The notes under the pieces are model-generated. The model was not told the origin of the DNA. It ran no database searches and was given only the letters and a program-made list of their open reading frames with translations. A stretch of 64,000 nt of DNA from a virus. Below, piece by piece: positions 9,379 to 29,738 of the stretch (positions within the stretch are counted from its first letter, which is position 1; each line of letters starts with the position of its first letter). Location: IMG/VR virus record IMGVR_UViG_3300045051_000081, positions 1-64,000 of that record; one strand, written 5' to 3'. Position numbers and translations under genes: made by a program.

Positions 9379-9426
9379 AGTCGTCTCCCTTGACCGTTAG
9401 CCTCCGATGTATTACATTTGGTATAT

Positions 9427-9510
9427 GGCCTAGGTGAACTGCTCTGAAACACAGCGCCCTAGGGGAAGCAATTCCTGCACTGGGTACGGGACGAGAAGCG
9501 CACCTAGGCC
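9427..9510. other. Long-range 10-bp inverted repeat at the end of the 1944-aa gene
   Basis: GGCCTAGGTG (9427-9436) and CACCTAGGCC (9501-9510) are perfect complements separated by 64 bases. The second arm touches the stop codon of the large virion gene. The element could be a transcription end or RNA-processing structure separating virion genes from the lysis cassette. No T tract was seen. Confidence 0.5.
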
Positions 9511-12500: not shown

Positions 12501-15344
12501 GAACTCTGGACTATCGACTGGATAAGGAACCGAACCGCCGTTCTGATACCTTACTTTCCTCTTCGCTTGAGCAGACCGGCGAGCGAGCGATGATCTTTCG
12601 CGCGCCTCAACAGCACGCGCTTTATTTCGGGCCTTGATTCCTTCGCGGCCAAGCGGGCGTACCGTTCCGCCACTTGCATAGCCCGCTGGTGCTGGCTGGT
12701 CATGTCTGTCCGGTTCTCCTGCTATCGGGGTACGAGCAGCACGCCCCGCATACATCCGCATCGTTCGCAAGAACGCGATGTTCTCTTGTGGCGTGGTCTT
12801 GCCAAGGAGGTAGTGCCCCTTCGCTGGGTCAACCATGCCCTCCACAATCAGATCCTGTACCGACTTGATGCCAGCATCACGCATGGCCTTGACTTGGCCT
12901 GCACTTAGGAACCCCACCACGGCTCCCAGCGGCCCGCCAGCAATCCCACCCGTCGCTCCGCCAAATATATGAAGCATCTTCGACAGTCTGCTCCCCTGCA
13001 GACCAAAGTGCCTCATCGCGTACAGATCTTGCGCGGTGTTTGATCCACCGGGAATCTTGGTGGCGTCAATGCTCATCTTGGCGCGACGCATGTCTCGCGC
13101 GATCAACTGCATGGTGTTGATCTGTTCTGGCGTGAAGCCAAACTCACGCAGAGCCGCACCGTTCTGACGAATAAACGACTGGAATTGATCCGCCCGCAGG
13201 ACGTTGATCTCGGTTGTACCGGCAGCAGTATTGGATACCAGCTTGTTGGTGATCCAATCCGAGATCGCCCTACGCGCACCATCGCGCGCCTCTGGCGTAG
13301 TCAGCCTCGCCATCACATTCCGCGCATCAGCAACCGCAGTCTTGCTGCCAAAGATGCTGCCAAGGAGCTTGGAGATATCTTCCTTATCCCTCAGCCCCAT
13401 AAGGTCGCCGAAGATGCCCTCGTTTCCCCGCTTGCTGACAGCCGCACGCTGAGCCGCCGCTTCCTTGGTGACGACCGGAACATTGGCCGTGGCTTGCCTT
13501 GATGCCAGCGTCGATTGCTCAAGCTCGTCCAGCCGCCGCGCCAGCGCACCGCCATCACGCTCAGCCACAGCACGCAGCGCATGCTGCTTGCTGTTCGCCC
13601 AACTCCTCAGACTGGTAGGATTGATATTGCCGTTCACATCAGTGGCACGAGCCCGCAAATCAGCGACCAGCGCCTCGGTCACCTCCTGCAACCCGCCTCC
13701 GGGACGACCTTGGGTCGCACGCAAGTAGGCGTTGACGGTGTCGTAGCCCTTGGGACCACTAGGAATGATCCTCCCCGGCACAGCAGAGGGGGTCATCTTC
13801 TGCTCGCCGCCCTGCCCCGGCTTCACGATGCCTTGGACCGGCTCCGTCTTGAAGATCGCCGACCGTTCCTTGGTCGCTGCTGTTGCTGCAGCCAGACGTT
13901 CTGCCGCATCCGCACCCATGGCAGCTTGCCCCGGTCCTGCCGGAACACCCGCTTCAAACGGAGCAACAGCCGACTGCTCTACGGCTGTCCGCAATTCAGC
14001 CATACGCCCATAGGCTTTGGTGGGACCACGCGCGCGCATCTCCGCCCGCATCTCATCCGAGATAAGACTACGCAGCGACCGCATTTCTGCGAACGAAACG
14101 ACGGGGGTATATTGTCCGATAACTCCCTGAATGCGCCTCTCAGCATCCGTAATAGTCTCAGCGTCAGCCAGCGTCATGCCATTCCGAAGACGGAAATCTG
14201 CGTTGATCACCGGATCAGCATTGACCGAGAGCCTTCCTTGCGGATCGATACCCTCCCACAGCCTGCTCGCAGCATTGCGTGACGCAGTGTTGGCCTCGGT
14301 TAGCTCACGCTGAAAAACCTGCCCGGAAATATCCGGGGTAAAGCCGGTGCCACCTGCCGCTCGATCTGCTCGCTGCGCCCGTTCCGCTGCTACTCGTGCC
14401 GCTTCTTCGGCTCGCGCTACTGCTGTTCTCTCCGCTGACTCGGCAATGGCATCCTCAACTCGCATCCGCTCCCTGATATTGTTGGCAACCTCCTCAGGAT
14501 TACCGGGTGTCTCCGTCGTCTCCAGCGCACGCTGCCTTGCCGCAGCCTGCTCTGCCCGCCGCTCCTGAAACGGAGCCTGCGCCTTCGTCTGCACACCACG
14601 CTCCAACTGCCCCAGTCCATAGTTGCCCGAGGCTTGGAACGTCGTCGGCTCTGAACCGGGAATGATCTCCTCGACATCGGCAAGCTTGGTCCGTACCTGC
14701 TCCGGGGTCTCCTTCCCTTCCTTCGCAGCCTGCTTCAATGCCAACCCGGCTTGCGTCTCCTGCCCCTCTTTGGTGTACAGCCGCCCCTCATCCGCAAGCG
14801 AACCAGCCTTCGGCTCTGCAGTCTTTGTCTTGTAGGGGAGAGGCTTGCCAATTTGCTTGAGCCCAAGACCGGGGGTCGCTAGCTGCGCAGCAAACTCTGA
14901 GTATTCCTTGGGAACGCCGAGCCTTTGCTCACCGGGCTCACCAATGACAGCACGATACGCAGCGTTGATCGGCGAGCCGATGTAACCAAGCGCACCGAAG
15001 CCTACATTACCGAGACCCCAGAGCAGATTGCCCTCATCCCCCTCCTTGCCAGTCCGCGTGACAGCCTGTTTCAGTTGTCCGAGGCCCCTACCTACTTGGT
15101 TCTGCGCCTCCTGCCGCATCTCCGTATAGATCTCGGGGTAATCCAGAACAGTCGTGTTCGTTCGCGTGGGCTCTGGCTTCTCTCCCGGCTGCAACGCTCG
15201 CTTACGCTCCCATGGCGGAATCCTGTCCTCTTCCTCCGGGGTAAGAGGCTTGGCATCGCTGGGGCGTACCGTGACCCTCGCCGGAGCCTGCGCAGGCTGC
15301 TGCGGGCGTTCCCATGGAGGGATTCTATCGGGATCGTCAGCCAT
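9510..15344 (-). CDS. Giant virion/ejection polyvalent protein with zincin-like motif
   Basis: 1944 aa, starting at the ATG that overlaps the previous stop (TTG one codon earlier is an alternative). The N-terminus has two DRIPPWER repeats. A large helical Ala/Arg/Glu-rich region follows (about 190-900). GG-x-V motifs appear (YASGGTVRP, RYQNGGSVPYP). Around residues 1240-1400 there is a metallopeptidase-like HEIQHAIQEREGF motif with further conserved residues, as in large polyvalent protein-associated domains. The C-terminal 400 residues hold another polyvalent-type domain (MTSPNNPLFPNQL, AGISAIDRHMVNEF). Such proteins are packaged in virions and enter the cell with the DNA. It is the last structural gene before lysis. 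Peptidase activity is inferred from HExxH only. Confidence 0.75.
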   Translation of the reverse strand: MADDPDRIPPWERPQQPAQAPARVTVRPSDAKPLTPEEEDRIPPWERKRALQPGEKPEPTRTNTTVLDYPEIYTEMRQEAQNQVGRGLGQLKQAVTRTGKEGDEGNLLWGLGNVGFGALGYIGSPINAAYRAVIGEPGEQRLGVPKEYSEFAAQLATPGLGLKQIGKPLPYKTKTAEPKAGSLADEGRLYTKEGQETQAGLALKQAAKEGKETPEQVRTKLADVEEIIPGSEPTTFQASGNYGLGQLERGVQTKAQAPFQERRAEQAAARQRALETTETPGNPEEVANNIRERMRVEDAIAESAERTAVARAEEAARVAAERAQRADRAAGGTGFTPDISGQVFQRELTEANTASRNAASRLWEGIDPQGRLSVNADPVINADFRLRNGMTLADAETITDAERRIQGVIGQYTPVVSFAEMRSLRSLISDEMRAEMRARGPTKAYGRMAELRTAVEQSAVAPFEAGVPAGPGQAAMGADAAERLAAATAATKERSAIFKTEPVQGIVKPGQGGEQKMTPSAVPGRIIPSGPKGYDTVNAYLRATQGRPGGGLQEVTEALVADLRARATDVNGNINPTSLRSWANSKQHALRAVAERDGGALARRLDELEQSTLASRQATANVPVVTKEAAAQRAAVSKRGNEGIFGDLMGLRDKEDISKLLGSIFGSKTAVADARNVMARLTTPEARDGARRAISDWITNKLVSNTAAGTTEINVLRADQFQSFIRQNGAALREFGFTPEQINTMQLIARDMRRAKMSIDATKIPGGSNTAQDLYAMRHFGLQGSRLSKMLHIFGGATGGIAGGPLGAVVGFLSAGQVKAMRDAGIKSVQDLIVEGMVDPAKGHYLLGKTTPQENIAFLRTMRMYAGRAARTPIAGEPDRHDQPAPAGYASGGTVRPLGREGIKARNKARAVEARERSSLARRSAQAKRKVRYQNGGSVPYPVDSPEFKEEVARALAKNQDTIAAAQEFYPRVPLNDKAWSQFIENAPASINIEDRRPGYKGGLRAAYRRADGGGVNADSSEPDPLDAELKRRNTPGGLSATAGSTVTSTTPVQDIPAPKVNKEGETLPTYVLKEMGKGLLGAPEQFTHAAGDLQRRGEYAGSQEDMPYGGPPPEEMPAGAAAALMLYGANAPFPKPGIGVFGGRGALTANKGMLAEAEKMLAAGVPHATIRNRTGWEFGSEGKPKFEISDAESRVIPEAPSERVEGGQGGASRDTGFRPNKRLEEVFHHPALYEAYPWLRNMRTSLEVGEGIKPGASYTPPTKNQKRFGRAGEIEVRAPTYERGGMGDLFEKQFASDVGARDMLLHEIQHAIQEREGFAPGSNPRQLPLKNSEVETIAQNMAKRSGVDWDAASLQEKQNMIRVVRHRIYKAQAGETEARNVQTRADSTLPSRASWETEDIKRQNQMIDKNRRLKPGEKPFNDAKIYKSEYEGPEYRSEYKDTQAAPAEAVKAPEVPMLLGNPELRGSMSTLDNMPFTYRGKGPAEWTPQEFAEVGKHFGVERLGPESPATAFRYSDNTPFNIPGGLEGQFTYYDMLRMKADGIDPSRIPRELHIPLHQKLMRSMDVAQPVSPERTWSGLMFGMTSPNNPLFPNQLTQSILRMREPGLRQQLANSIPWKVGDAVSQEERLAASNNIANMLGIDAESRGGLGVRGSTDYTRIAELAQMWEQHPQWFTKTATEDWPSYVERLTSQVKGTAMKTGSFGGVWQDPMHAGISAIDRHMVNEFERTGRLFKNRAEQRAFEKRAVDRWNDNNEDRPVRNYRQLRQASGGEGFLTKMKLEYVGNEQNLKLRTRKGEISPNVPPHLANAQWPSEPSHVKVMGEAYRRALDWNQRLATQQGLNLFPSQWLEWDRIRRRLEPHENMFPGLERMPAMSREQLRKVSDEHTASGHKTYEKVAGEEEGQMGLQPTRPRPNPAGFAYFTVPPVVGAAGVIKGLVNNEEE

Positions 15345-18300
15345 CAATGGCTCCAGTTCAGCAAGCCTTTACCCCACCGCTTCTCGAACTTCTCAACCGC
15401 CTCAGGATCACTCCCGTATTTCTTGATCCATTCGACTTCAACCGGCGGAATAATCGCCATCCGCGCCTGTGCCGCGTACTTCTCCGGTGGATTGGCGTGA
15501 TTGAAGACCGCTTCAAGCTGGTTCAAATCACCGAAGTACAGTTCCTGATTCCGGGGGTTGGACAGGAAGTCATGCCGCTCCCGCTCGCGTCTGGCTGCTG
15601 CCTCCATGGATGCGATGATCATCCGAGAGCCCTCCACAGTCTGCGAGGCATTGGGGAACGCACGCATTGCTGCTTGGATGATCGGCGCTGCGTTATGCGT
15701 GCCACCACCAGTCGTTCTGGAGGCTTCGAAGCCGCCCATGACACCGGTCTTCTCTGACTGCTCCAGTGAGCCAACCACCGTGGGATCGAAGTACGGCTTC
15801 TGCCCACCAAGCTGCGCGAAGTAGTTGACCCACTGCGCAGCACTCAAACGCTGCTGGTAGCCCGGACCCTGTGCCAAGAACCTCTTCTTGAACTGGTCGT
15901 CAGTCTCGTTGGGCAGGCGCTCCAGTGAAGCCTTCATGTCCGACAGCTTCAATTGCGTTCGATTGCCACCCTCGGCATACTTGCGCGCCTCCTCCATGAT
16001 CTTGTCGTTGCGCTTCTGCGTGGCCGTCACCTGCGGCTTGAGCACCGGTTTGGGGTCGATGATGTACTTGGTGTGCTCCGGGTTATCGGGATCAAGCTCG
16101 ATGGTGCTTTGCAGCGACGGCTTGGCAGGCACTGCATTCGGATCAGGCGCAGGCTTCACCGTGCCTGTAGCGGGCGGCTTCTCACCCGGCTTCCCTGTCA
16201 CTGGCCCTTCCGCTGTGCCCCAGCGGATCTCCATGGTCTTCTGGTTATAGAACTCCGTTCCCTTGATAGGATGAACGCGACCAGTCGGCCTCCACTCTTC
16301 TTTGAGTGCCTTTTGCTTTTCCCAATCCAACCTATCCCTTGCCACCTTCTTCGCATCGTATCCCGGATTGGGCACCTGCGTATCCCACATCCTGCCGTCA
16401 GGATACTGATAGATCAGCGTGGGAAACTCAGTACGTAACGTAGGCTTGTTATCCAGCACATTCTGCGCACGGTTATGCTCGATAGCACCCGCCGCACCAG
16501 CAAGACCCTCACCTACTCCAGTCCCAAGATACGGGCTCTGGCTGCGCAGCATGGCAATGCCAGCCGCTGTCAACGGATTAGTCGCCCAACGCTCAGCGAA
16601 ACTACGCGGTGGCGCACCGGGGATGGCCCGCATCTCGGCAGGACCGTAACCAAGATTAGTGGGATCGTATTGCCGAGGCTGCGGCGTCGTTCTCTTCTGA
16701 CCGCTGACCTCAAGATCGCCCGTGGTGTTAGGACCACCAGCAAGCTGCGTGACGTTGGCTCCCGAGCCAACCGGGGCACCGGGAACGAAGCCGATGGGAG
16801 TACGATCAGGACCGGTGTAACCACTCGCCCTTGCAAGAGCCAGACCGCGCTGCCCCTCGATGCCGTAACGCTCGCGACCTATAGAGGCTGTCTGCGGACC
16901 ACCGGCAAAGCCGACATCACGCCCAGTTCTCGGGTCACGGCTGGCGTTACCCGTCCCATAGTTGATCGGGTTCGCACCTGCCCACAACGAGTCATCAACG
17001 CCCTGCCCTGTGACTGCTCTCGATGCCCGCGTTTGCCAAGGATAGTAGTTGGGATTGTTGACCAGATTCCCGAGAGGCTGACCCTCCTGCACTGCACGAT
17101 CAATCACAGAGGCCTGATACCCCTGCCGTGCCACCGGCTTCACACCCACCTCCGCCGTGGTGTTCGCGTCAAACCTACGCGCTAGCCGAGGATTGTCCTC
17201 TAGCTCGCGCTGCACCCGCTCGCGCGTCAGCACCTGTGGCGCAACCTCAGTCGCCTGATACGGCAGGTTTCCTGCAGGCGAGCCGCGCGGCGGGCCAGTG
17301 AGAGACCTTGGCCCCTCGGTGCCGAGGAAAGGCGCAAGCGGATCGGGAGACGGGATACTTGGCCGCGTGGGGAGTTTGTCCAGCCCGAACCCATCGCGCG
17401 AGGGCGGAGGCCGCTCTCGAACAAGCATCCCTGTGCCCTCTGCAGGGACAGACTGACCCGGTCGGAGCCCCATCCGCTCCCTAAATAGTCGCTCATCTTC
17501 CGGGTTACCGGTGACCGGCGTGCGAGCGGGAACAGCAGGATCACCGCTGTCCAGCGTATCGCCCTTGTCGCCCTCATCATTGGGGCCGCCAGCTTCGAAG
17601 TACCGGATAGGACCAGCCTCGACCGGACCACCATGCTTGAAGAGACCGCCGAACAGCTTGCCAGCCGCACCTCCAATAACGCCACCAATCGGGCCTCCAA
17701 TGGCTGTGCCAGCAACCGAACCAAGCGTTCCGCCAATAGTGCTGCCAGCGGAGCCACTGCTCGCCTGTGGCGCTGTAGTCGGCGAGGCCTGCTGCCCCAT
17801 GCCTGTGCTGGAGGCAGCCGCAAGAGAAGGAATCCTTATGTAGGGCTGCTTGTATCTCGGGATCTTGAACGCCCCGAAGATGTTAGGAGGCTCGTCCTGA
17901 GTGGGCTTCTGCTGGCCTACCTTCTCGATATCGCTGAGCACCTCATCCTTCGTACCGGAGGTCTGAATGCTGGTGTCCTTGCCGTAGGTGTCGTCTCTTC
18001 CACGATCACGCTCGTCACGATCATACTCATCGCCACCACCGCCACCAAACATGCTTCCGAAACGCGAATCATCGTCTACATAGCCGCCGCTGGCGAGACG
18101 CGGAACGGTACCCCCATCCTTGCTGGTGAAGAGCCCACCTATCGCCGAGCCAATGCCCAGCGCCTGCGTCAGCGGGTTAGGCGTCGGCGGCGTGCTGACA
18201 CCGGTCGAGTTCGCCGAGGTGCTGGTCGTCCCTTGGCCCACCGTCCCCGTCAATGGGCCGATACCACCTAGAGCCGCGCCCTCCCAGTTGGCAACTTGGA

Positions 18301-18952
18301 ACGGATAGGCGCTCTGCTGCTGCGCATTTGCCGTTGCAACGTCCAACTCACGCTGCGCCTGTGCCTGCTCCACAGTGCCAGCCTTCATCGCCGTCTCGGC
18401 ACCCTGAACGCTGAACGCCTTTAACTTGTTGTATTCGTCCAGCGCCTGCGTGTAGCCAGACTGATAGAGCCCCGCAATGACAGGGGCCTGCGCAAGCTGC
18501 TGCTGCCCGCCTACCTCCGCTGCAGCTACGCCAGCGCGGTCGCCACCGAAGGCGTTACCAGACCGGATGCCCTGACTGAGAAGATTGTTGGCTGCGATCT
18601 TGTTCTGATTGTTGAACCAATCCTGCGTGGTGTTGACCACGTTCTGAGTAAACGGAGACTGGATCTCGGCAACCCTAGCAGGATCGAAGTCGCCAAGATG
18701 CATGCCCGTGTCGAACATGTAATTGACGGCTTCGGTCTGATGCGGATTGAGCGGCGCAACACTCGACAGCATGGCCGGGTTGAACGGCGTATCTGCAAGT
18801 GTATCGACCTTGCTCAGGAAATCCTCATAGCGAGCCCCCGTCGCGGGGGTTGGACCCTGCGCGAAGTTGGTCGTGGACATACCTGTCGAGGTGCCGCCTG
18901 TGGTAGTCGATGCACCTGATGGAGTTGGCGCGCTACCTTTGCTCCCGCACAT
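15344..18952 (-). CDS. Large internal virion protein
   Basis: 1202 aa if started at MCGSKGSAPT (18952), which has GAGGG five bases upstream. An ATG nine codons earlier lies within the end of the upstream gene and has a poorer site. The N-terminal part (about 1-300) is helical with Gln-rich segments, followed by low-complexity Gly/Pro linkers. GG-x-V motifs occur (GGTVPRLASGGYVDD, FKHGGPVEAG, RYFEAGG). The C-terminal 350 residues are charged and helical. The position between a GNAT gene and a giant ejection-like protein, and the MCG start common in podovirus internal proteins, support an inner core or DNA-ejection role. This is inferred. Confidence 0.7.
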   Translation of the reverse strand: MCGSKGSAPTPSGASTTTGGTSTGMSTTNFAQGPTPATGARYEDFLSKVDTLADTPFNPAMLSSVAPLNPHQTEAVNYMFDTGMHLGDFDPARVAEIQSPFTQNVVNTTQDWFNNQNKIAANNLLSQGIRSGNAFGGDRAGVAAAEVGGQQQLAQAPVIAGLYQSGYTQALDEYNKLKAFSVQGAETAMKAGTVEQAQAQRELDVATANAQQQSAYPFQVANWEGAALGGIGPLTGTVGQGTTSTSANSTGVSTPPTPNPLTQALGIGSAIGGLFTSKDGGTVPRLASGGYVDDDSRFGSMFGGGGGDEYDRDERDRGRDDTYGKDTSIQTSGTKDEVLSDIEKVGQQKPTQDEPPNIFGAFKIPRYKQPYIRIPSLAAASSTGMGQQASPTTAPQASSGSAGSTIGGTLGSVAGTAIGGPIGGVIGGAAGKLFGGLFKHGGPVEAGPIRYFEAGGPNDEGDKGDTLDSGDPAVPARTPVTGNPEDERLFRERMGLRPGQSVPAEGTGMLVRERPPPSRDGFGLDKLPTRPSIPSPDPLAPFLGTEGPRSLTGPPRGSPAGNLPYQATEVAPQVLTRERVQRELEDNPRLARRFDANTTAEVGVKPVARQGYQASVIDRAVQEGQPLGNLVNNPNYYPWQTRASRAVTGQGVDDSLWAGANPINYGTGNASRDPRTGRDVGFAGGPQTASIGRERYGIEGQRGLALARASGYTGPDRTPIGFVPGAPVGSGANVTQLAGGPNTTGDLEVSGQKRTTPQPRQYDPTNLGYGPAEMRAIPGAPPRSFAERWATNPLTAAGIAMLRSQSPYLGTGVGEGLAGAAGAIEHNRAQNVLDNKPTLRTEFPTLIYQYPDGRMWDTQVPNPGYDAKKVARDRLDWEKQKALKEEWRPTGRVHPIKGTEFYNQKTMEIRWGTAEGPVTGKPGEKPPATGTVKPAPDPNAVPAKPSLQSTIELDPDNPEHTKYIIDPKPVLKPQVTATQKRNDKIMEEARKYAEGGNRTQLKLSDMKASLERLPNETDDQFKKRFLAQGPGYQQRLSAAQWVNYFAQLGGQKPYFDPTVVGSLEQSEKTGVMGGFEASRTTGGGTHNAAPIIQAAMRAFPNASQTVEGSRMIIASMEAAARRERERHDFLSNPRNQELYFGDLNQLEAVFNHANPPEKYAAQARMAIIPPVEVEWIKKYGSDPEAVEKFEKRWGKGLLNWSH

Positions 18953-19565
18953 TCTTACCCTCGTCTCGTCCTCCGACACGAAGGATAGTCTCGACCACGG
19001 GAACCACTTCCCGCGTTCGCTCGGTGTGCGCCTTCTTATTCAACTCCTCGATGCGCCGCATCTCCTCACGCATCTTCTCGTTCTGACGTGGGATCGTTCC
19101 GTACATGAAGAACGCACCGACACAAGGCATGTGCCTCGCGTAGAGCCGCACCTTACCTTCGGTGCGGTCGAAGCTGTTGATGCCAACCTGCACCGGCAGC
19201 TTCATCAAGTTGCTCGTCCACTTGGCCTGTTCGATCAGCATGCGCGCATAGTTGCTCTTGCGATACTTCGGATGCACGAAGTTCCAACGCTCCAGCAGAT
19301 ACTCGTCGTCCGAGTACCAGTCGCTGACGATCAGCATCCCCATGGTCGCCACCACGCGACCACTCTCATCGATGACCCAGATGAACCCACCCTTGCGCCG
19401 GGTTGCTATCTTGATGCCCTCACGCACCTTGTCATCGTTCACACCGAACATGCCGTTCTCGCTGTGAAGCAGCATCAGCAGCGCGAAGATCTGATCCTCG
19501 TCAGCCGCCGTCGCGAACCGCACACCCGGTACACCCTTGTCTGGATGGTAGTAGGGCTTGTTCAT
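18933..19565 (-). CDS. GNAT-family N-acetyltransferase in the virion cluster
   Basis: 210 aa. The GNAT core includes a beta strand pair (GGFIWVIDESGRVVATMGML) and the segment WNFVHPKYRKSNYARMLIEQ, which matches the acetyl-CoA binding motif (V-x-P-x-x-R-x-x-x-x-A-R). Acetyltransferases in this position are common in T7-like and related podoviruses and may modify a host or virion protein; the substrate is unknown. It overlaps the genes on both sides (4 and about 20 bases). Confidence 0.8.
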   Translation of the reverse strand: MNKPYYHPDKGVPGVRFATAADEDQIFALLMLLHSENGMFGVNDDKVREGIKIATRRKGGFIWVIDESGRVVATMGMLIVSDWYSDDEYLLERWNFVHPKYRKSNYARMLIEQAKWTSNLMKLPVQVGINSFDRTEGKVRLYARHMPCVGAFFMYGTIPRQNEKMREEMRRIEELNKKAHTERTREVVPVVETILRVGGRDEGKNVREQR

Positions 19566-22500
19566 TTGCTCGGCCCCGGCAGTGTCTTCTGGAAGGCCTG
19601 CACCTGCTTACGAATAGCCTCAACGCTCTTGCATAGAATCTTGGACCCCGCATCGGAGTCGCCGCCGCCAATCGCTGCCACGATCTCGGGGTCTACAATC
19701 ATCTCCCCACCCGCCGTGACAATGGGCGTGGTGTCATCGTCCATGTCGTCTATCGGTGGGCCACCGTTGTGACCCATGAACCCGCCATCCTGATAGCCCT
19801 TCGGAACACTCGTCGGCAGGTTCTGATACGGCACCTTCTGCGGCGGCGCTATGATCGGCTTCGGTGCCGGAAGTTGACGCGAGCCGGGGCCTTTGACCCC
19901 ACCCATGCGTCCTATACCACCCTTCAACGCAGGCGCAGCACCTCGCCGCATGCCACCGGTCGCACCCCCGGTCACGCTATGCGTGAGCAGGTTGCCCCAC
20001 ATCTTGGCACCCGCCATCGTGTTCCCCTCACCCAATCCAGACACCACGTCAGCCGGGATCACAAAGCTGCCGGTGCGTGCCCGCATCGGGATGCGATCTG
20101 TGCGACCGGACACAGTAGAATTGATCAGGTGAGCCCCCGGCGCTCGCGCTGGCATATTGATGGCAGCCAGACCCGCACCCTTGGGCTGCGCCACGTTCCT
20201 CGCCCCGAAGTGGGACTGCTGCCCCATGGAGTTCATCGAGGAGGGGCTCATCACCGGCTTGGCAATCCCGCCTGCCGCCAGTCCCGGCACTAGACCACCA
20301 TGCTTGAAGCCGCCTCCACCAAATGCGCTCTGATCCTGTGGAGCCGCTCCCAGTCCAGCCGTAGGCGATGACATCACGTTGCTGACCATGGCATCCACAT
20401 TCAGAGGGCTCGACGGATTGCCGCCGCCGCTTCCCTTGCCACCACCAAGATCAGAGAAGCCGACCGAAGTCGCGCTTGACCCCGCCGTCTCCTCGATCCG
20501 CCTCTGCTCCTGACTTTGCATGCCCTGTAACACCATCATGGCCGCTGTCGGAATAGGAACCCGGAAGGCCTCCGCCGTCGCTGCCACAAGACCGGGAGCC
20601 GTCGCCGCCACCGAGGACGCTAGATCGGGATTGGCCTGCGCTGCCTGTGTCGCCGATATCACAGCCTGCGTGGCAGCGGGCGAGGCAGGATTAGGAACAC
20701 CGGGAGAGGGCGATTGGGTCGCTGGCGACGGAGAGGGCGTCTGTGTCTGTGGCGTCTGTGTTTGTGGCTGCGTCTGTGGCGTCTGCGTCTGCGGAGCAGG
20801 GGTCTGAGTCGTCCCTTTGATACCGGGCGCTGGACTGAGTGGCCCCTGAGTGAATGTCTGGTTTGTCTTATCCAGCGCAGTCGGGCTCGTTATACTGGTA
20901 TTAGCGGGAGCTATATTCCCCGGCTCAGCCAAGCCGGGAGCCTGCGGCCCGTAGTTTGGGCCGAAGTTAGTCGCCAACTGCGCAGCTTGCTGCTCCGCCT
21001 GTTGGTTCTGCGACACCATCGCATCCACGACATCCGCAATAGTCGCAGGCGACCGCCCCGCAATGTCAGCGGAAGGCTGCGCATTTGGATCAGCAGCAGG
21101 AGTCCCAGTGAAACCAGTAAAGCCTGAGGGATCCATTCCCTCGAACGCTTCCGTATTGGCGTGACCCTGAGCGGCAAGGCCGGGAGCGGGAGCAGCAGGG
21201 GCGGGAGCGGGCGCAGGAGCAGGGGCGGGATTGTAACTCTGCATCGCCTGATCAATACCTTTGGCGATCTCGCTTTGAACCATGCTGTAAGCAGGGACAC
21301 CAAGCACCGAATAGTTGGGGCCATAACCCAACTGAGCAGCAATCTGCGTGGCAATGCTTGTAAGCGCACTTCTGGCCGCAGCGGCTGGCACCCCCGCCTT
21401 TTCCATCGCTGACTTAGCCTGCGCCCCCCTCGCCATGCCTTCTTCCTTGGAGGTCACTGTCCCCCTCGTGGCATTCGTAACAATGCTCTGTACGGTCTGC
21501 GCTGTCGTTGGCGCAGGAGCAGGAGCAGGCTGATCCTGATCCGTCTGATCCATGCTCTCGTTGATGTCTTGATTGGCGTGCCCCACCTCTGCAGGATCAA
21601 GCCCAGCCTGAGCCGCCATCGTCGCTTGATTCGCGTGGCCCTGAGAGACAGCAGTCGAGGGGTCCATTCCCTCGTAAGCCCCCATGTTGGCGTGACCGGG
21701 AGCAACATCAGCAAGACCGGGAGTAGCCGCCATCGTTGCCGGATTGGCGTGACCTTGAGCGACAGCCGCAGCAGGCGCATCCATCCCTTCATATGCCGAC
21801 TGATTGGCATGGGCTCCGGTGGGATTGGTAAGACCGGGTGTTGGCGCTGCAGGAGCAGGCGCGAGAGCATCCAGCGTCTGCGCTTGAGTAGCGATAGCAG
21901 CCTGTGTCTGCGCTTGGTTTGTCGCTATCGTTTGATCGACGGTTGCAGCGATGTCCTGATTGGTCAGTCCCGGAGTGGGAGCAGCAGGAGCAACAGTAGG
22001 AGCAGCCGTTCGATCAGCAGGCGTCAGCGTGCCAAGTGTCTCTGCTATCGCTGCAGCTTTCGCATCCGCTATAGTTTGTGCAGCTTGTTGCGCTGCTTGC
22101 TGTGCCGCCTGAGTATCAAACGCCGCACCGGGAAGGGCATCATGTGCAGTAGACAGACTCTCCATGTCAGCCGGGGTTGCTGGGGCACCCTTACTTGCAG
22201 CAAAGTCCGCAGCGTGTGCAGCATCTATCGCTTGCTGCGCCGTTAAGCCGGGTGCAGCAACAGGAGCAACCTCCGCAGCCTTCTCCGCTGCAACCTCCGT
22301 TGGATTCTCAGCTTGAACAGCAGCAGCAATCTCTGCAGCAACCTCATTCGTGGGATCAGCCGAGGTCTGCGCGTCCTCCGTACCGGGTTGCCCCGTCTCC
22401 GCAGCAGGGGTAGCCCCAAGATCAGTCTGATTCATCGCCTGCGCTGCCGCCGTCAGCGCAGTAGCTAGAGCGGGATTGGATTGGGCCTGCGCTGCAGCAG

Positions 22501-25500
22501 CAGCATGTGCAGCATTGGCATTATCCTGCGCCGCCGCAGCATCAGCATCCGCGAACGCATCCGGTCCCGCAGCCGTCAACCCTTGAGGACCACCGAGGCC
22601 GCCGGGTGTTGTACTGTATGCATCAAAGCCGGGAGCGAGACCGCCAGTGGGACTGACGCCGAGTACGCCAGTCGTCGGCGTCATACCGGAGGTGGGAGCC
22701 AACGAAGCTGCCTTATCTGCCAGCGCAGCCGCCAAACTAGGATTCTGAGAAGCGGCCATCGTATTCGCTAGAGCATGCGATGCGGCCAAGCCGGTGGGAG
22801 AAGTCGATGGCTGGTCTTGCGCTGCAGCCGCAATCTCATCTGCAGTCATGCTTGCTGCTTGCGCTGTACCAATAAGCCCACCAACAAGGCTAGATTGGTT
22901 ATTCGTGCTGGGGGCAAGACCCCCAACCACACCTTTCGCATCAGGTCCGGGGTCTGGTGCTGCCAAGCCCGGATCCACCACGTTGCCACGATCATCAGTC
23001 GTTATGCCGTAGGCTGCTGGATTCCCGAACGGCCCACCCGGATCGCCATAAAATCCGCTGTGAGGATCGCTAACCGATAAGCCGGGTACCGCGCCGGTAT
23101 TGATAGAAGCCGCAGGTGCAGCGAGGTTTGGCCCGCCCTTCGCTTGATCACCGAGCGACTGCATATCAAACGCTGCAGGAGAAAGGGCTGCTGCGAGCGT
23201 TGCAAACGAAGGCGCGGGTGCTGGCGTTTGAGCCTGTGCCGCGTTGATCCCGAGTACGCTGCCCAGATTCGCTTGGTTGAGCGAAGGCGTGAATGACGGG
23301 GGTGGACCAATGTCGAACGGATTGGGCGAGGGCGGTGGCGGGGCCACAGGCGCGAACGGCTCTTGCGGACTTACCGGAACTGAAGGATCGATGGCAGGCC
23401 CGTAAGGCGCGTCGTGCTGCGTTCCCACATACGGATCAAGAGCCGCCAGCGACAGGGCCTGCGCCTGTGCCACCGTCGTCTCTTGCGCGCCGGGAGTATA
23501 CCCGAGGCCGCCTTTTGCATCAGGTCCGGGATCTGGTGCCGGTTGACCCGGATCCACCACATTGCCTCGGTCATCGGTTGTGATGCCATAGGCCGCCGGA
23601 TTCCCAAACGGACCTCCCGGATCAGCATGAAATCCGCTGTGGGGATCGCTGACCGATAAGCCAAGACCGGGAGCGGGAGCAGGAGCAGCAGCAGGAGCAG
23701 GCGTATCAGTCTGATCAGTCTGGTCCGTTTGAGTCTGATCCGTTTGGGCCGCAGCGATATCAGCCGCAATGCTCTGCGCTTGATTGCTCTCGAAACCTCC
23801 ACCCTTAGCGCCACTACCCGGATCAGACCCTAACCCGCCAAAGTCACCGGGGCCTTGTGTAGTAGTCTGATTATTCGCCTTATCCATATCGACGCCGCGA
23901 CCCGCCAGTTCGAGCGCATACGCCACATCGAGATCAGTCACCGCTCCCTTTGAAAGATCACCAAGCGGCTCTGTGGTTACACCACGGTCAGTGGTTGGAG
24001 CGTCGAAACCCGGATCTTTATCAGCAGGAGCAGGAGCAGGAGACAATCCCGGTGCCGGTGCCGCCTTGTCTGCTTCCGCTTGCGCATCCGCCTGCGCCTG
24101 ATCATCGCTAACACTGGGACTGCTCTTCTCCCCCGCCGCCGACAGCGCATCAGCAGCCGCTTGCGACACTGCGCCTGAGACCGATGGCGCACCGCCCCAA
24201 CCCCCTGTCCCACCACTATCCAAATCAGTGCCAAAAGCACCGTTGGGTGCGCCAAAACCAAATGTACCGGGAGCAGCTAAGTTGCCAAACTGACCATTCG
24301 CCCACGAGGCCGTCATGTCATGAGTGCCGAGGGCATCACGATCACCAAGCCCAAACGCACCAAAGGCTGGACTTGCAGGCGGAGCCGCAATCGAAACAGT
24401 CGGTGTCGCAAAGCTCGGTGAGTACTCCGCTGACGGATTGGTTTGATCTACATCGGAATCATCTTGATCAGGCGCACCGAGATCACCCTTGCCACCAGTC
24501 GTAGCCAAGCTTGCTAGAGAGACACCACTCTTGCCGCCGCCAGTCGTGTCCGTATCTGTGCTGGGAGCATCCGTGCTAGGAGCATCCGTACTTGCTACGT
24601 CTGTGCTGCTCTTCTCGCCACCGCCCTTCTCACCGCCACCCTTCTCGCCAAAGCCGAAACCAGCCGCAGCAGTATTGGTAGCTGCCGCCGCAGGCCCACC
24701 CTTGCCGTCATCGCTAGCCTGATCATCAGATGCCGTTACGTCGGTGCCGCCACTGACCGAGGTGGAGTAGCCAGAAGTGGAATCAGTATCGCTGGATTGA
24801 TCCCCGCTCGCGCTCGCGAGGCCACCTCCAACGCCACTTGAGTAACCGCCACCCACATCGCTCGTATTGCCCGCGTAGCCGCCAGCAGACGGCCCACCAG
24901 TTGGAGCGCCGCCCTTGCCGCCACCAGCAACACCGGGACCACCGCCACCGAGAGTGCCACCAAAGCCGGGACCGTAGCCTGCAGCATAAGCCGCCTCAGT
25001 GGCACCGAGATCGGCAGCAGCAAGACCCAGAGCATTGGTGCCGCCACCACCAGCATCACCTATTCCGAAGGAGCCTGTCCCCGGCGTTGCAGCACCGAGA
25101 TCGCCGGGACCGAAGAATCCACCAGTCAGCGCGCCCTGAGAGGCATAGGCCCCGTAGGCCGCCGCCTGCCCCTTCCCCATACCCGCAGCTTCAAGGCCAG
25201 CCGAGATTTGTCCGGGGGACATGGAAGCCGTAAGACCAAGAGCGGCAGCAGAAATGCCGGGTGCGCCATACGCCGCAGTCGATGGGTTGCCGAAGTTGCC
25301 GGTGTCGGGACCGGGGCCGCCCTTGCCGCCTTCTGGACCACCCTTGCCGCCGGGATCTCCTAGACCGAAGCCTAGACCAGCCGCAGCGGGGCCTCCAGAC
25401 ACCGCACCCGGACCACCACCGGGGCCTGCACCGGGGCCGCCACCGGGGCCGCCACCGGGGCCGCCCGTGCCGGGAGCACCACCTTGGCTGCCCTCACTGC

Positions 25501-26344
25501 CCGGACCACCCTGACTGCAGCCGCCGCTGTTGCCTTCGCCATAGCCGCCATAGCAGCCGCCGCCCTCACCGCCATAGCAGCCACCACCGCCGCTACAGCC
25601 GCCGCCACCTTCACCGCCGCAGCCGCTACCGCAGCCAGTGCCGCTGCCCTGACTGCCGCCAAACCCACCCAGACCGCCTACGCCAAAGCCTGCAGAACCA
25701 CCGCAGCCGCCGCCGCAGCTACAGCCGCCACATGCGCCGCTGCCGCAGGAATCGCCGCTACAACCACAACCGCCACCAGCGCCGCAGCCGCCGCAAGCGC
25801 CCTCACCACCGCCAGCGCCCTCACCACCGCCACCATCACCGCCGCCACCGCCGCCTTCCAGATAGCGCCAGCCACCCCTACCTCGATGACGTACAGCCGA
25901 GGGGTCGAACAACTCATCGATATCGCCGTCTTGCGTTCGCCGCCGAAACCCCCGCTGACGCGGCGTGCGAATGCCGTTCTCGCGATCTGGCCTGTAGAAG
26001 AAGTTGGGGCGCGGATTGCGCAGTTCTTCGATGGTCTGGAGATATTCGGGAGGCAATTCCGGCATCATCGGCAGCAACGAGGCCGCATCGTCTGGCCCCT
26101 GCCGGTCATCTGCCAATCCGGCAATGTTGTCAGGCTGATAGGGGTCTTTCTTCTGCGTCAGACCGCCTTCCGCATACTTGGATTGCTTGGTCTGGGAGAG
26201 GCCTATCGCAATGGCCTGTTTGCGGTTGGTGACCTTTGGACCTGTCTTGGAGCCAGAATGAAGCTGTCCGCGCTTGAACTCGCCCATGACCTCATGCATC
26301 CCAGCTTGCTTCTGGGCCTTGGTCCGCATGGGTCCGAGCGGCAT
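19562..26344 (-). CDS. 2260-aa low-complexity virion protein (DUF6496-like N-terminus, Cys/Gly-rich, collagen-like and Ala/Gln/Pro-rich tracts)
   Basis: One uninterrupted 6.8-kb frame. Residues 1-60 resemble DUF6496 (MHEVMGEFKRGQLHSGSK, KVTNRKQAIAIGLSQTKQS). From about 162 to 290 it is a Gly/Cys-rich tract with many GCGG units. A collagen-like Gly-Pro tract follows, then about 1500 residues of Ala/Gln/Pro/Thr/Asp sequence with internal repeats (PAPGL, GHAN..., DPHSGF...AYGITTDDRGN). The last 210 residues are a conserved-looking globular part (FKHGGLVPGLAAGG, IPMRARTGSFVIPADVVSG, GNTMAGAKMWGNLL). Both ends carry the GG-x-V motifs seen in the other virion proteins. It is probably a virion or ejected scaffold-like protein. 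The intact frame despite extreme repeats argues for selection. Exact function unknown. Confidence 0.8.
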   Translation of the reverse strand: MPLGPMRTKAQKQAGMHEVMGEFKRGQLHSGSKTGPKVTNRKQAIAIGLSQTKQSKYAEGGLTQKKDPYQPDNIAGLADDRQGPDDAASLLPMMPELPPEYLQTIEELRNPRPNFFYRPDRENGIRTPRQRGFRRRTQDGDIDELFDPSAVRHRGRGGWRYLEGGGGGGDGGGGEGAGGGEGACGGCGAGGGCGCSGDSCGSGACGGCSCGGGCGGSAGFGVGGLGGFGGSQGSGTGCGSGCGGEGGGGCSGGGGCYGGEGGGCYGGYGEGNSGGCSQGGPGSEGSQGGAPGTGGPGGGPGGGPGAGPGGGPGAVSGGPAAAGLGFGLGDPGGKGGPEGGKGGPGPDTGNFGNPSTAAYGAPGISAAALGLTASMSPGQISAGLEAAGMGKGQAAAYGAYASQGALTGGFFGPGDLGAATPGTGSFGIGDAGGGGTNALGLAAADLGATEAAYAAGYGPGFGGTLGGGGPGVAGGGKGGAPTGGPSAGGYAGNTSDVGGGYSSGVGGGLASASGDQSSDTDSTSGYSTSVSGGTDVTASDDQASDDGKGGPAAAATNTAAAGFGFGEKGGGEKGGGEKSSTDVASTDAPSTDAPSTDTDTTGGGKSGVSLASLATTGGKGDLGAPDQDDSDVDQTNPSAEYSPSFATPTVSIAAPPASPAFGAFGLGDRDALGTHDMTASWANGQFGNLAAPGTFGFGAPNGAFGTDLDSGGTGGWGGAPSVSGAVSQAAADALSAAGEKSSPSVSDDQAQADAQAEADKAAPAPGLSPAPAPADKDPGFDAPTTDRGVTTEPLGDLSKGAVTDLDVAYALELAGRGVDMDKANNQTTTQGPGDFGGLGSDPGSGAKGGGFESNQAQSIAADIAAAQTDQTQTDQTDQTDTPAPAAAPAPAPGLGLSVSDPHSGFHADPGGPFGNPAAYGITTDDRGNVVDPGQPAPDPGPDAKGGLGYTPGAQETTVAQAQALSLAALDPYVGTQHDAPYGPAIDPSVPVSPQEPFAPVAPPPPSPNPFDIGPPPSFTPSLNQANLGSVLGINAAQAQTPAPAPSFATLAAALSPAAFDMQSLGDQAKGGPNLAAPAASINTGAVPGLSVSDPHSGFYGDPGGPFGNPAAYGITTDDRGNVVDPGLAAPDPGPDAKGVVGGLAPSTNNQSSLVGGLIGTAQAASMTADEIAAAAQDQPSTSPTGLAASHALANTMAASQNPSLAAALADKAASLAPTSGMTPTTGVLGVSPTGGLAPGFDAYSTTPGGLGGPQGLTAAGPDAFADADAAAAQDNANAAHAAAAAQAQSNPALATALTAAAQAMNQTDLGATPAAETGQPGTEDAQTSADPTNEVAAEIAAAVQAENPTEVAAEKAAEVAPVAAPGLTAQQAIDAAHAADFAASKGAPATPADMESLSTAHDALPGAAFDTQAAQQAAQQAAQTIADAKAAAIAETLGTLTPADRTAAPTVAPAAPTPGLTNQDIAATVDQTIATNQAQTQAAIATQAQTLDALAPAPAAPTPGLTNPTGAHANQSAYEGMDAPAAAVAQGHANPATMAATPGLADVAPGHANMGAYEGMDPSTAVSQGHANQATMAAQAGLDPAEVGHANQDINESMDQTDQDQPAPAPAPTTAQTVQSIVTNATRGTVTSKEEGMARGAQAKSAMEKAGVPAAAARSALTSIATQIAAQLGYGPNYSVLGVPAYSMVQSEIAKGIDQAMQSYNPAPAPAPAPAPAAPAPGLAAQGHANTEAFEGMDPSGFTGFTGTPAADPNAQPSADIAGRSPATIADVVDAMVSQNQQAEQQAAQLATNFGPNYGPQAPGLAEPGNIAPANTSITSPTALDKTNQTFTQGPLSPAPGIKGTTQTPAPQTQTPQTQPQTQTPQTQTPSPSPATQSPSPGVPNPASPAATQAVISATQAAQANPDLASSVAATAPGLVAATAEAFRVPIPTAAMMVLQGMQSQEQRRIEETAGSSATSVGFSDLGGGKGSGGGNPSSPLNVDAMVSNVMSSPTAGLGAAPQDQSAFGGGGFKHGGLVPGLAAGGIAKPVMSPSSMNSMGQQSHFGARNVAQPKGAGLAAINMPARAPGAHLINSTVSGRTDRIPMRARTGSFVIPADVVSGLGEGNTMAGAKMWGNLLTHSVTGGATGGMRRGAAPALKGGIGRMGGVKGPGSRQLPAPKPIIAPPQKVPYQNLPTSVPKGYQDGGFMGHNGGPPIDDMDDDTTPIVTAGGEMIVDPEIVAAIGGGDSDAGSKILCKSVEAIRKQVQAFQKTLPGPSK
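22926..23672. repeat. Diverged direct repeat of about 150 bp inside the giant gene
   Basis: Two copies, about 22931-23085 and 23513-23670, encode the same block (DPHSGF, DPGGPFGNPAAYGITTDD, RGNVVDPG, then DPGPDAKG). They are about 85% identical by eye and keep the frame. They reflect segmental duplication within the gene. Confidence 0.75.
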
Positions 26345-26348
26345 CTCG

Positions 26349-26663
26349 CTACCTTCTGAAGTTGGCCTTATCCGTACCGGTCTCAGTCGCTGACATCGTG
26401 GCTGTCGTCTCTATGATCTCCAGCAACGCTACTAGCGCGCGCCGATTCTGGTAAGCGACGAAATCCCGGCTAACCAGATTGGCCCCCAGCCGCAGGGCAT
26501 CGATACGCGCGATCTCCGCCTTGATCTCCGCAACAAGCTCCGGGTCCATGACCAGCGGCTCGCTCTCCGCCGAGGCGCGCTGTATCGGGGATGGTTGTGC
26601 CGGGGAGCGCATGACATCGCGCTGATAGGCTCTTGCCAGATATAGCTTCAGGTCTCGTCTCAT
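26349..26663 (-). CDS. Unknown helical small protein
   Basis: 104 aa from the ATG coupled (ATGA) to the preceding stop; the longer frame upstream overlaps a real gene. It has a basic N-terminus (MRRDLKLYLARAYQRDVMR) and helical acidic segments (DPELVAEIKAEIARIDALRL). It lies between small tail-end genes and the 2260-aa gene. No family was recognised. Confidence 0.65.
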   Translation of the reverse strand: MRRDLKLYLARAYQRDVMRSPAQPSPIQRASAESEPLVMDPELVAEIKAEIARIDALRLGANLVSRDFVAYQNRRALVALLEIIETTATMSATETGTDKANFRR

Positions 26664-26872
26664 TTGACTGGCCCTAACATTCTCTCGGATATCGCCTGAT
26701 GCAGCCTGTGGATTGCCTGCACCGTCAGCAACAGATGCTCGTGATACTGGAAGAGCCACTGCTCTTCAGGGTCTTGGTCTGATTCCGAAGCCGATGGCAA
26801 CGCAGTCTGGTTCGACCGTGCAGACGGCTGCGGCCAGCGCGCGACGTTGGGCGGGGGGTCACCAAAGGCCAT
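26660..26872 (-). CDS. Unknown small protein
   Basis: 70 aa starting MAFGDPPPNVARW. A Pro/Ser linker leads to a helix (EEQWLFQYHEHLLLTVQAIH). It starts one base past the previous stop and overlaps the next gene by ATGA. It is a likely minor virion or assembly component judged by location only. Confidence 0.6.
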   Translation of the reverse strand: MAFGDPPPNVARWPQPSARSNQTALPSASESDQDPEEQWLFQYHEHLLLTVQAIHRLHQAISERMLGPVK

Positions 26873-26873: not shown

Positions 26874-27134
26874 TCACGCTCCAATAACCTTCCAGTTTTT
26901 CCCGTTGTACCAAGCCAGAACCTTGTTGAATCCGCCGGAGGTGACGGTCTGCCCCCACCCGGTCTTGCCGCTATCACTGATGCAGCAGACCATGCCAGCA
27001 GTAGGCTCCGCAGGAAGCTCAGAAAACGGCACCGGCACCATGGTGTACCCGGTCGCGTGATCGATATGATCGGCCAGCGTGCCGAAGGCCTGCGCCATCA
27101 GAAGCTGCGTCTGGATGATCCGGTCGCCCCTCAT
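26874..27134 (-). CDS. Small conserved tail-module protein
   Basis: 86 aa, coupled by ATGA to the gp10-like gene. A helical N-terminus (DRIIQTQLLMAQAFGTLADH) is followed by a beta domain (FSELPAEPTAGMVCCISDSG, WYNGKNWKVIGA). The last part resembles the small beta domains that end phage tail or fibre proteins. It is probably a tail accessory protein. Confidence 0.65.
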   Translation of the reverse strand: MRGDRIIQTQLLMAQAFGTLADHIDHATGYTMVPVPFSELPAEPTAGMVCCISDSGKTGWGQTVTSGGFNKVLAWYNGKNWKVIGA

Positions 27135-28645
27135 GGACGTTTCCCTGCCGGTTTGAACCGGAGCAACGTCGCCCCCACGCGCGCGGAGAACCCCTTGCGC
27201 GCCACCCAATCAAACCGTGCCGCGATGTGCCGTCCCCGCGCTCTCGGATTGAAGAACTGCGTGGTCTCGGTCATCGACCAAGGACCATAGGTCCGCACCT
27301 TTGACGCTGCATACCCCAACGTCTTGAGCGTGAGGTTCACCGCCCCGTTCTTCCCGAACCACTTGAAGTCAGGCTGACACTGATCAACCATCGGGATCAT
27401 CGTGCCATCGCCAATCTCGGCATACCCCGTCTCGATGAACACGCCACGCATCGGCTGGTCATCATCGTCAAACCCGGTCTCGTGCTGCTGCACCCGGTAG
27501 TTCAGGTCAGCGCCAAGCGGCGGCCCGAAGATGTTGACGTTGATCCACGCTGTGCGTCCCAGAACACCGCTGTCCCAAGCAGGCCCGTTGGTGTTCATCT
27601 TGACGTAGTGGTCGGGTTCATTCGACAGGATTATGCCATCAACCTCCTCCTCCCCCTCACGGTAGGGTTCCCTGAGGGAAGGATGATAGAACGTCACCTC
27701 GTCAGCGAATGAATTGGCAGCCGCATGACACTTGTTGATGTTCTCAACATCCAGATCGAAGAAGGCAAAGTCCCAGACCGGACAATCCAACGACTGCACG
27801 CCACTGTCGCCAAACTTCCAGAACCCATCCTGCCCACGCCAATAGGTCGTGCGCCCCAGCGTGACCACCGCGTGCGGCGCAACCAAGCCGCAGCCGGTAC
27901 CCATGATCGTGAAGCCATAGATCAGGGGTGGGCCGATATAGCTCATCGACCACACATCCACGTCAGTGAATATCAGCGTCGTCTGCGGTGCTTGGATCGC
28001 ACCCATGATGCGTGAGCCACGCGAGAGCCGGAACGTCCCCGCCTGATTGCCCACCGCTGCAATCCAGATCGTCTCATTGCCCGCATCAGAGAACCGGATC
28101 AGCAGCGGATCGAGCAACCCGGTATCATCAGTCGCCGTCATCGTCCCCCACAGGATGATCTGTGCCTGCGGCATGGCCACAAACATGCCGTGACTGTGTG
28201 GAGGGGCCTCTGTAATCGGCGCTACCGTAGGTGGCGGAAAGGGATCTGGCAGCGGTGGCGGCTTGTAGATCAACAACGGCCCGTGTGTGCAGAGCGCAAG
28301 ACCATACTCGCCGAAGTTATCGAGGAACCATGCTGACTTGCGCGGGTCTGACAACGAAAACTCCGTCGTCAGCACATACCGCCCATCATCATCATTGACA
28401 GCAAGCTCAAGCCCTTTGTCGGTGCCAACCAGAAGACTCTTGCGATCCTCCAGATCGAGCCAAGCGTGCATCCTGCGAATGTAGTGAGCGAACGGATCCT
28501 GAAATAACCGTAGCCAGCCCGCGAACTTCTCCACCAGACCCGAGCGCCAGCGGATGAGATTGCCGGTGTACCAAGCCCCGCTGGCCTGCGTCTGCGTGGC
28601 CTGATTGTTGAAGCCGGGAGGCGCTTGGATCTTGACCAGAGGCAT
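27131..28645 (-). CDS. P22 gp10-like tail/DNA-stabilisation protein
   Basis: 504 aa, dominated by beta strands. Typical motifs of the P22 gp10-like packaged DNA stabilisation proteins are seen: N-terminal TGNLIRWRSGLVEKFAGW, DVDVWSMSYIGPPLIYGF, and CGLVAPHAVVTLGRTTYWRG followed by a DGFWKF motif. In the P22 family gp10 attaches below gp4 to close the portal and hold DNA before the needle is added. One-base overlap with the adaptor gene upstream suggests stepwise tail assembly. Family assignment is from motif recognition. Confidence 0.8.
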   Translation of the reverse strand: MPLVKIQAPPGFNNQATQTQASGAWYTGNLIRWRSGLVEKFAGWLRLFQDPFAHYIRRMHAWLDLEDRKSLLVGTDKGLELAVNDDDGRYVLTTEFSLSDPRKSAWFLDNFGEYGLALCTHGPLLIYKPPPLPDPFPPPTVAPITEAPPHSHGMFVAMPQAQIILWGTMTATDDTGLLDPLLIRFSDAGNETIWIAAVGNQAGTFRLSRGSRIMGAIQAPQTTLIFTDVDVWSMSYIGPPLIYGFTIMGTGCGLVAPHAVVTLGRTTYWRGQDGFWKFGDSGVQSLDCPVWDFAFFDLDVENINKCHAAANSFADEVTFYHPSLREPYREGEEEVDGIILSNEPDHYVKMNTNGPAWDSGVLGRTAWINVNIFGPPLGADLNYRVQQHETGFDDDDQPMRGVFIETGYAEIGDGTMIPMVDQCQPDFKWFGKNGAVNLTLKTLGYAASKVRTYGPWSMTETTQFFNPRARGRHIAARFDWVARKGFSARVGATLLRFKPAGKRP

Positions 28646-29409
28646 CAGGCAGCCCTCGGTGTAGGAGGACCAGACGCGGGCACGTCACCTTTCATACGAC
28701 CAGCCTCCAGCATCGCGCTGGCTCTCAGCGTCTCGTATGTCCCGTTCCATGTTATGGCCTTCTGCGGATCGTCTGCCTGCGCACCGAAGTCACGCTGATA
28801 GCCACTGGCAAACACCATGCAGGCAGCACAGAAGAGGTCAGCGTAGTTGACCGACAGAAACGTCTCGGTGTTGACCGCAGACAACAGCGCGGGGCGGATC
28901 ACCCCGAAGTACTCGACGGCATAAGCCTTGTTTGGGACCGGTGCCAACCGGACAGAGTATGACAATGTCTGCGGAAATGTGGATGTGGACGTGCCAACAA
29001 CAGCATACTTCTCTGGCACCCCAAGTGGTGACGGTTGCATGCTGTTCGTGTTGGGATCGTACCGACTGCCCGACCAGATCATATCCAGCGCCTCGGGGCT
29101 GAAACGCTCCAGCGTCTTTCGTGCCGTGAAATTCACCACCTCCCCAGCCTGCCAGCCCTTCCCAGTCGGGACCAACACACTCATCTCCCGAAGAACCAGC
29201 ACCGTGCTCGGGAGCGGAGTCTCACGATTCCCCACAGTTAATGTCCCAGTGGTCATCGCTGTCGTTGCCAGAAACTCAAGCTCGCGGTAAATCCTGTTAT
29301 CGGCATAAGTGAACATCAGTGGGACGATGCGCTTGAAGTTCTCGTCCTCCTGATTGAGCGGAATCTCCAAAATCGTCTGCAGAGCCTTGAGCACCTGATC
29401 GTAGTTCAT
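28645..29409 (-). CDS. Head-to-tail adaptor protein (SU10/P22 gp4-like)
   Basis: 254 aa from MNYDQVLKAL, whose ATG overlaps the previous TGA. The N-terminal helices and the segment NFKRIVPLMFTYADNRIYRE are typical of SU10-type adaptors. The middle part has beta strands (TGTLTVGNRETPLPSTVLVL) and the C-terminal half carries helices (SVNYADLFCAACMVFASGYQ). The adaptor binds the portal ring and receives the tail hub. It directly precedes the gp10-like gene, as expected. Confidence 0.8.
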   Translation of the reverse strand: MNYDQVLKALQTILEIPLNQEDENFKRIVPLMFTYADNRIYRELEFLATTAMTTGTLTVGNRETPLPSTVLVLREMSVLVPTGKGWQAGEVVNFTARKTLERFSPEALDMIWSGSRYDPNTNSMQPSPLGVPEKYAVVGTSTSTFPQTLSYSVRLAPVPNKAYAVEYFGVIRPALLSAVNTETFLSVNYADLFCAACMVFASGYQRDFGAQADDPQKAITWNGTYETLRASAMLEAGRMKGDVPASGPPTPRAA

Positions 29410-29738
29410 TCGACCGGTTCTCCTTGTATGTGGGTCCAAAGAGAGAGCGTGTTGCCCAGACTGGTCTTCACTACAGCCCGCACCGTGTACCTCACATCAG
29501 GTAGCAACCCAGCGATCCGCTGTATGGTCGCGGTCTGCGCGGTTGTCCCCTCCGGGGTCACCAGAGCCGGGGCATCGATCAGGTGGGAATCGGGGTCGGG
29601 ATCATCCCCCTCGCGCACAGTTAAATCCCAGACCGTCTCGGTGAGGGTCTCGCCATCAACGAGGTCGTTCACGAAGTCCAAGCCATACAGCAGGCTCTCG
29701 GCCTGCTCGGCTGGTGAGAAGTCCCTGCCCGTATAAAT
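29406..29738 (-). CDS. Phage structural protein with probable ATT start codon
   Basis: The frame continues upstream of the only ATG/GTG/TTG candidate (TTG at 29681) with good protein-like sequence, YTGRDFSPAEQAESLLYGLD. This begins exactly six bases after an AGGAGG ribosome site that overlaps the preceding stop. The codon there is ATT (29736-29738). With this start the protein has 110 aa: an N-terminal helix containing GRDFSPAE, then an immunoglobulin-like beta domain (VWDLTVREG, VTPEGTTAQTATIQRIAGLL, VRYTVRAVVKTS). Similar small proteins sit between adaptor and fibre genes in related phages. The ATT start is inferred. Confidence 0.6.
   Translation of the reverse strand: MYTGRDFSPAEQAESLLYGLDFVNDLVDGETLTETVWDLTVREGDDPDPDSHLIDAPALVTPEGTTAQTATIQRIAGLLPDVRYTVRAVVKTSLGNTLSLWTHIQGEPVE

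Follow-up and report, generated by a model that had tools for sequence, protein, structure and literature searches.

The window, a stretch of 64,000 nucleotides within a 71,071-bp viral record, carries a giant low-complexity gene that is under purifying selection and whose product, as judged by sequence comparison, is an inflated form of a widespread compact phage protein. The best reading as a whole, held with somewhat less than even confidence, is that of a mostly disordered protein that is virion-associated, probably ejected, and equipped with a metallothionein-style thiolate knot. The frame had been described as intact from the letters alone, which is borne out by a single uninterrupted frame that starts with ATG and has no internal stop. 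The gene and its parts are as follows:

19562-26344, minus strand: giant 2260-aa low-complexity protein (open reading frame, purifying selection)
26352-26357, minus strand: Shine-Dalgarno-like AGAAGG, 8-13 nt upstream of the ATG of the giant gene
26186-26302, minus strand: DUF6496 (PF20106) match, aa 15-53 (33.3 bits, cut-off 24)
25517-25795, minus strand: Gly/Cys tract, aa 184-276, 15 Cys in 93 residues (composition)
25703-25786, minus strand: conserved Cys core, aa 187-214 (CGAGGGCGCSGDSCGSGACGGCSCGGGC), unchanged in the closest relative and present as an ordered motif in others
25085-25474, minus strand: Gly-rich GGGP-type tract, aa 291-420, not collagen (composition)
20345-25084, minus strand: Ala/Pro/Gln/Thr/Asp-rich low-complexity linker, aa 421-2000, variable between relatives (composition)
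19955-20113, minus strand: C-terminal module 1 (GRTDRIPMRARTGSFVIPADVVSGLGEGNTMAG...), beta-hairpin and two helices, aa 2078-2130 (profile, AlphaFold2)
19565-19738, minus strand: C-terminal module 2 (TPIVTAGGEMIVDPEIVAAIGGGD...LPGPSK), a duplicate of module 1, aa 2203-2260 (profile, AlphaFold2)

The version of the gene in the closest relative (IMG/VR 3300014969_000018) encodes 2258 aa, as joined from two contig-end pieces with an exact overlap of 25 aa (75 nt), and was found again in 3300017792, i.e., in two assemblies. Nei-Gojobori-type counts between the window and this relative gave omega values between 0.08 and 0.38 for each of the 15 segments: the N-terminus stands at 0.08, the C-terminus spans 0.14-0.28 and the linker 0.17-0.38. 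The whole giant protein is therefore made and selected. A chance reading frame or an assembly artefact is ruled out by purifying selection and by the presence of the relative in two assemblies. A frameshift in close relatives, which the sequence-only reading had named as something that would speak against it, is absent from the closest one; the distant L136 has a lone in-frame TAA (8670-8672) between linker and C-terminus, which divides its 2760-codon giant gene. The Cys/low-complexity portion comprises 2316 codons, and the C-terminal portion begins with Met near a conserved stretch; the stop could represent gene fission, a sequencing error or readthrough. Contigs from several assemblies stop within the giant gene (L015, L016, L017, L018, L025, L128 and L133), and four of these seven breaks fall in the Gly/Cys tract. 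Assemblies break in this gene recurrently, and it is probably under-represented in databases.

The family relationship is carried by the conserved last 180 residues, which contain two copies of one beta-beta-alpha-alpha module (pLDDT ~90 each; AlphaFold2, 68 sequences). This fold had no significant match in the PDB (best VIA-align Z 2.5), and its structural matches in BFVD were unnamed phage proteins. A C-terminal profile retrieved at least 566 relatives in IMG/VR, 80 of which were kept, together with 12 in bacterial genomes and MAGs, which upholds the earlier suggestion of a conserved phage domain at this end. Most of the relatives listed have 140-300 aa, with a short linker that joins an N-terminal phrog_2423 element to the common C-terminus (phrog_11341-type); these compact homologues have about zero Cys and retain both C-terminal modules. 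One of them, UOF80319.1 of MW202675, matches the window protein over 48 aa at 52% (E 5e-13), and the module signatures GRTDxxPM..GSxVxPADxxS..G.GN and PI..AGGE...P..V..G.G are present in the latter. Both proteins also have an N-terminal 'MPL...QAIA..L' element; however, the compact protein (~190 aa) has a short linker, no Cys and a phrog_2423 N-terminus, whereas the window protein has DUF6496 instead. The N-terminal modules of the giants differ among themselves (DUF6496, a 'YGSEKGERVFYASRNAGRITG' type, phrog_2423 and others) and the C-terminus is common to all; since N-termini have been swapped within the giant clade, phrog_2423 does not define the C-terminal family. Tape-measure profiles matched compact relatives only, and weakly (E 0.1-0.3). 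No named family in the libraries searched covers the arrangement. The comparison provides a widespread but unnamed phage protein with a position and a domain plan. In L149 and L150 (Hollowayvirus LKA5 and D14S), the start of a ~720-aa protein adjoining an 11.5-kb gene is weakly similar to the C-terminal module.

The giant gene lies among the following neighbors:

9510-15347, minus strand: 1945-aa gene, possible second internal/ejection protein (gene order; weak matches only)
15344-18979, minus strand: 1211-aa gene in the place of 'internal virion protein D' of MW202675 (gene order; no PHROG or Pfam match)
18933-19565, minus strand: GNAT acetyltransferase (PF13508), next gene of the operon, its ATG overlapping the stop of the giant gene by 4 bp at 19562-19565 (Pfam)
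26349-26759, minus strand: 136-aa gene between nozzle and giant gene, without a family match in PHROG or Pfam
27131-28645, minus strand: nozzle/stabilization-type virion protein (phrog_3287, E 6e-48)
28645-29439, minus strand: SU10-type head-tail adaptor (PF24175)

Among the relatives surveyed, a podovirus-type nozzle gene was found upstream at all 71 testable loci and the GNAT gene next downstream in 74 of 82, and the window has both, the nozzle upstream and GNAT immediately downstream. In MW202675, the order is stabilization protein, a 113-aa protein, the compact form (193 aa), acetyltransferase and 'internal virion protein D', which resembles the window in its succession of nozzle, family member, GNAT and large internal protein. 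Gene order of this kind, together with enzyme matches below cut-off in the linkers of relatives, suggests that the protein is probably virion-associated or ejected. Those matches comprise a VanY match in L034 (E 8e-5) and ART-PolyVal matches in L044 and L116 (E 2e-5 and 9e-5), all below the curated cut-offs of Pfam. Phage polyvalent proteins are encoded near virion genes and have been predicted to be injected (Iyer et al. 2017, PMC5512222); ejection may be inferred here because the neighbors are virion genes and because VanY-like and ART-PolyVal-like domains, kinds described as injected cargo, occupy the same slot. Polyvalent proteins and the window protein are both very large and encoded among late virion genes, and ART-PolyVal-like domains of the former (also VanY-like ones) occur in linkers of relatives of the latter; however, polyvalent proteins combine several disparate enzyme domains per chain, whereas none was recognized in the mostly low-complexity window protein. 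By eye, other apparent linker domains were seen in L095 (kinase/HipA-like, 6845-10486) and L032 (D,D-peptidase-like, 4481-10477), which Pfam did not confirm.

It is improbable that the protein is instead a late non-virion factor acting in lysis or host takeover or serving as a substrate of the adjacent GNAT. The 4-bp coupling and the frequent adjacency to the GNAT gene would fit such a role, but the gene follows that of the nozzle in every relative checked and is placed ahead of putative internal-virion genes, and a separate endolysin is encoded at 7370-8935. A literature search found no virion proteomics of any family member and nothing useful on DUF6496 or Gly/Cys phage virion proteins, and the search for cultured relatives with proteomics led no further than a weak local resemblance to proteins of Hollowayvirus. 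Phage phiM5, whose particle proteome is annotated, was not matched by the compact protein; in this phage, the nozzle-type gene is followed by a small hypothetical gene and a tailspike.

A GNAT tree (midpoint root) placed ten giant-clade phages in one clade with support of 100/98, in which the window is the first branch; the nearest outsiders are phages with the compact form, among them a locus in a Bosea bin. A single inflation event is therefore the simplest account. Two clade members depart from the pattern, L032 with 3 Cys and L036 with 0 Cys and only 714 aa, which probably reflects secondary loss; thus, the Cys knot is not essential to all. In this clade, the short linker between the usual short N-terminal module and the C-terminal pair has grown to ~2000 low-complexity residues, starting with a selected Gly/Cys tract. 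The terminal modules would anchor the protein inside the virion or on its surface, close to the portal or tail, with the linker serving as cargo space, filled by enzymes (VanY-like or ART-PolyVal-like) in some relatives; an unfolded linker could be stored in the capsid and exit via the tail along with the DNA. This arrangement suggests that the linker is a slot for either enzymes or ~2000 disordered residues, and we group the protein with phage virion-cluster proteins whose linker takes up cargo.

Within the window protein, the DUF6496-like N-terminus recognized earlier scores above the gathering threshold and covers just ~40 of 2260 residues. It is the sole Pfam match, with no enzyme domain, and the PHROG search gave no match, including phrog_2423 at the N-terminus. 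Behind the Gly/Cys tract, Gly-rich GGGP-type, Ser/Asp and Ala/Pro/Gln/Thr segments follow up to about aa 2000, in agreement with the Ala/Gln/Pro low complexity first noticed, and the linker carries recurring PGL, GHAN and EGMD motifs (in the giant protein, PGL[ASTVG] 12 times against 1 expected and GHAN 5 times against 0.03). The description as collagen-like has to be dropped: collagen is built of long unbroken Gly-X-Y triplet repeats, whereas the longest run here, situated within the Cys tract, has 9 triplets, and the part that contains proline is a period-4 GGGP repeat. A fibrous protein is likewise disfavored by the lack of such a repeat and of a confident predicted structure for the tract (AlphaFold2 of N-terminus and Cys tract, pLDDT 47, pTM 0.17).

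The Gly/Cys-rich tract itself was correctly perceived, as it holds 15 of the 16 Cys of the giant protein at 55% Gly, and it is present in ten phages. Its core follows the pattern CGC[ST]GxxCGxGACGxCxC, with spacing CXC-X4-C-X4-C-X2-CXC-X3-C and small residues separating the cysteines. The stretch aa 187-214 is unchanged in the closest relative although three Cys codons differ synonymously (TGT/TGC); of the outer cysteines, 238, 256, 264 and 276 have given way to Gly or Tyr, and 250 has been lost by deletion. The core motif occurs in order in L019, L023 and L133 and more weakly in L136 and L128. Local alignments revealed order beyond composition (0 of 400 shuffles) for the window with L019, L023 and L133 and for L023 with L019 and L133; the window/L136 alignment was weaker (8 of 400). 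The pairs L023/L128 and L136/L024 also exceeded composition, and pairs of the window with L022, L024, L027 and L128 did not in the same shuffle test. A degenerate DNA pattern of the core had nine matches in 2.9 million viral contigs, six in the giant gene and three in short spurious frames, and the motif is thus nearly unique in this collection.

Codon usage in the tract is also unusual, with Gly codons at GGY:GGR = 71:1 against 231:83 elsewhere in the window gene (p 1e-7); all nine genes tested are biased the same way. Across 25457-25864 of the window (aa 161-290), Gly is written almost only as GGC or GGT, as in the tracts of eight relatives, and Ser in the window tract is mostly AGC or AGT. 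Since nearly all Gly codons are GGY, the tract is largely a run of NGY codons, in which a single change at the first base turns Gly, Cys and Ser into one another; this points to a possible birth by repeat expansion, with selection maintaining the tract afterwards.

The chemistry of the core is open to several readings, of which a metal rather than a disulphide ligand set is favored slightly above evens, because the number of cysteines is variable and unpaired, CC pairs are absent and the core has no His. The clusters contain 10-25 Cys (odd or even; 16-27% Cys), with CXC in all, CXXC in most and CC in none, and the core is also devoid of Lys, Arg and aromatics; such features are more in keeping with a metallothionein-like string of ligands than with a defined disulphide fold. 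In the giant clade, the Cys core would then most likely wrap a metal-thiolate cluster in the manner of metallothioneins, a speculative step that would yield a compact knot within an otherwise unfolded chain. Fungal copper metallothioneins (family 8, Neurospora/Agaricus) have the spacing [CXC]-X5-[CXC]-X3-[CXC]-X2-C (PMC4755600), and share with the phage core the CXC motifs, the small residues between them and the high Cys density; however, their seven-Cys spacing is not matched, the phage core is embedded in a 2260-aa protein, and homology is not claimed. A 28-aa low-complexity query with the core, a weak test, matched no metallothionein in the PDB. A redox cross-linker, reduced in the cell or capsid and forming inter-chain disulphides outside or in the host periplasm that would bind the copies together as a network or as the lining of a channel, appears unlikely. 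The ten phages do retain many cysteines in a flexible Gly-rich chain, where varying numbers would be tolerated, but core order and spacing are kept in several pairs beyond the needs of random cross-linking while outer cysteines are freely lost, and a phage-encoded glutaredoxin partner was not found in the ten phage records (some of which are fragments).

Slightly less probable still is that repeat expansion produced the tract and linker almost neutrally, with the two ends doing the work and the bulk being a flexible spacer. The predominance of NGY codons in the Cys region, the wide divergence of the linker, the reduction or absence of Cys in L032 and L036 and the commonness of the compact form are consistent with this; nevertheless, all segments are under purifying selection, the core amino acids are fixed while their codons change, and the motif order is retained across several divergent clade members. 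Conversion of the tract to thiazoles or oxazoles as a microcin-B17-like precursor was considered in view of its composition, which we take to resemble the microcin B17 core, but it is highly implausible and was rejected, as YcaO was found in none of the ten phage records in a search that detected its positive controls and was confined to phage genes.

Returning to the metal-thiolate reading, the strongest form of the proposal, that a phage clade packs a ~2000-residue disordered protein with a genuine metallothionein-like knot into the virion and delivers it via the tail into the host, is doubtful. If true, it would describe a virion-borne metal cluster that evolved when cargo born of repeats was inserted into a widespread small protein of the tail region, and a conserved Cys knot in a virion-cluster protein would offer testable metal or redox chemistry in phage particles.

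Two further observations concern other genes of the window. The motif [YFL][AKQRH]xGG is enriched in several structural-region proteins, encoded at 43378-45045 (5 against 0.5 expected), 38450-38959 (2 against 0.1) and 15344-18979 (3 against 0.6). Near the terminase, the gene at 51962-53092 has a PHROG 'transposase' match (E 2e-29) and may be misnamed or a true insertion.
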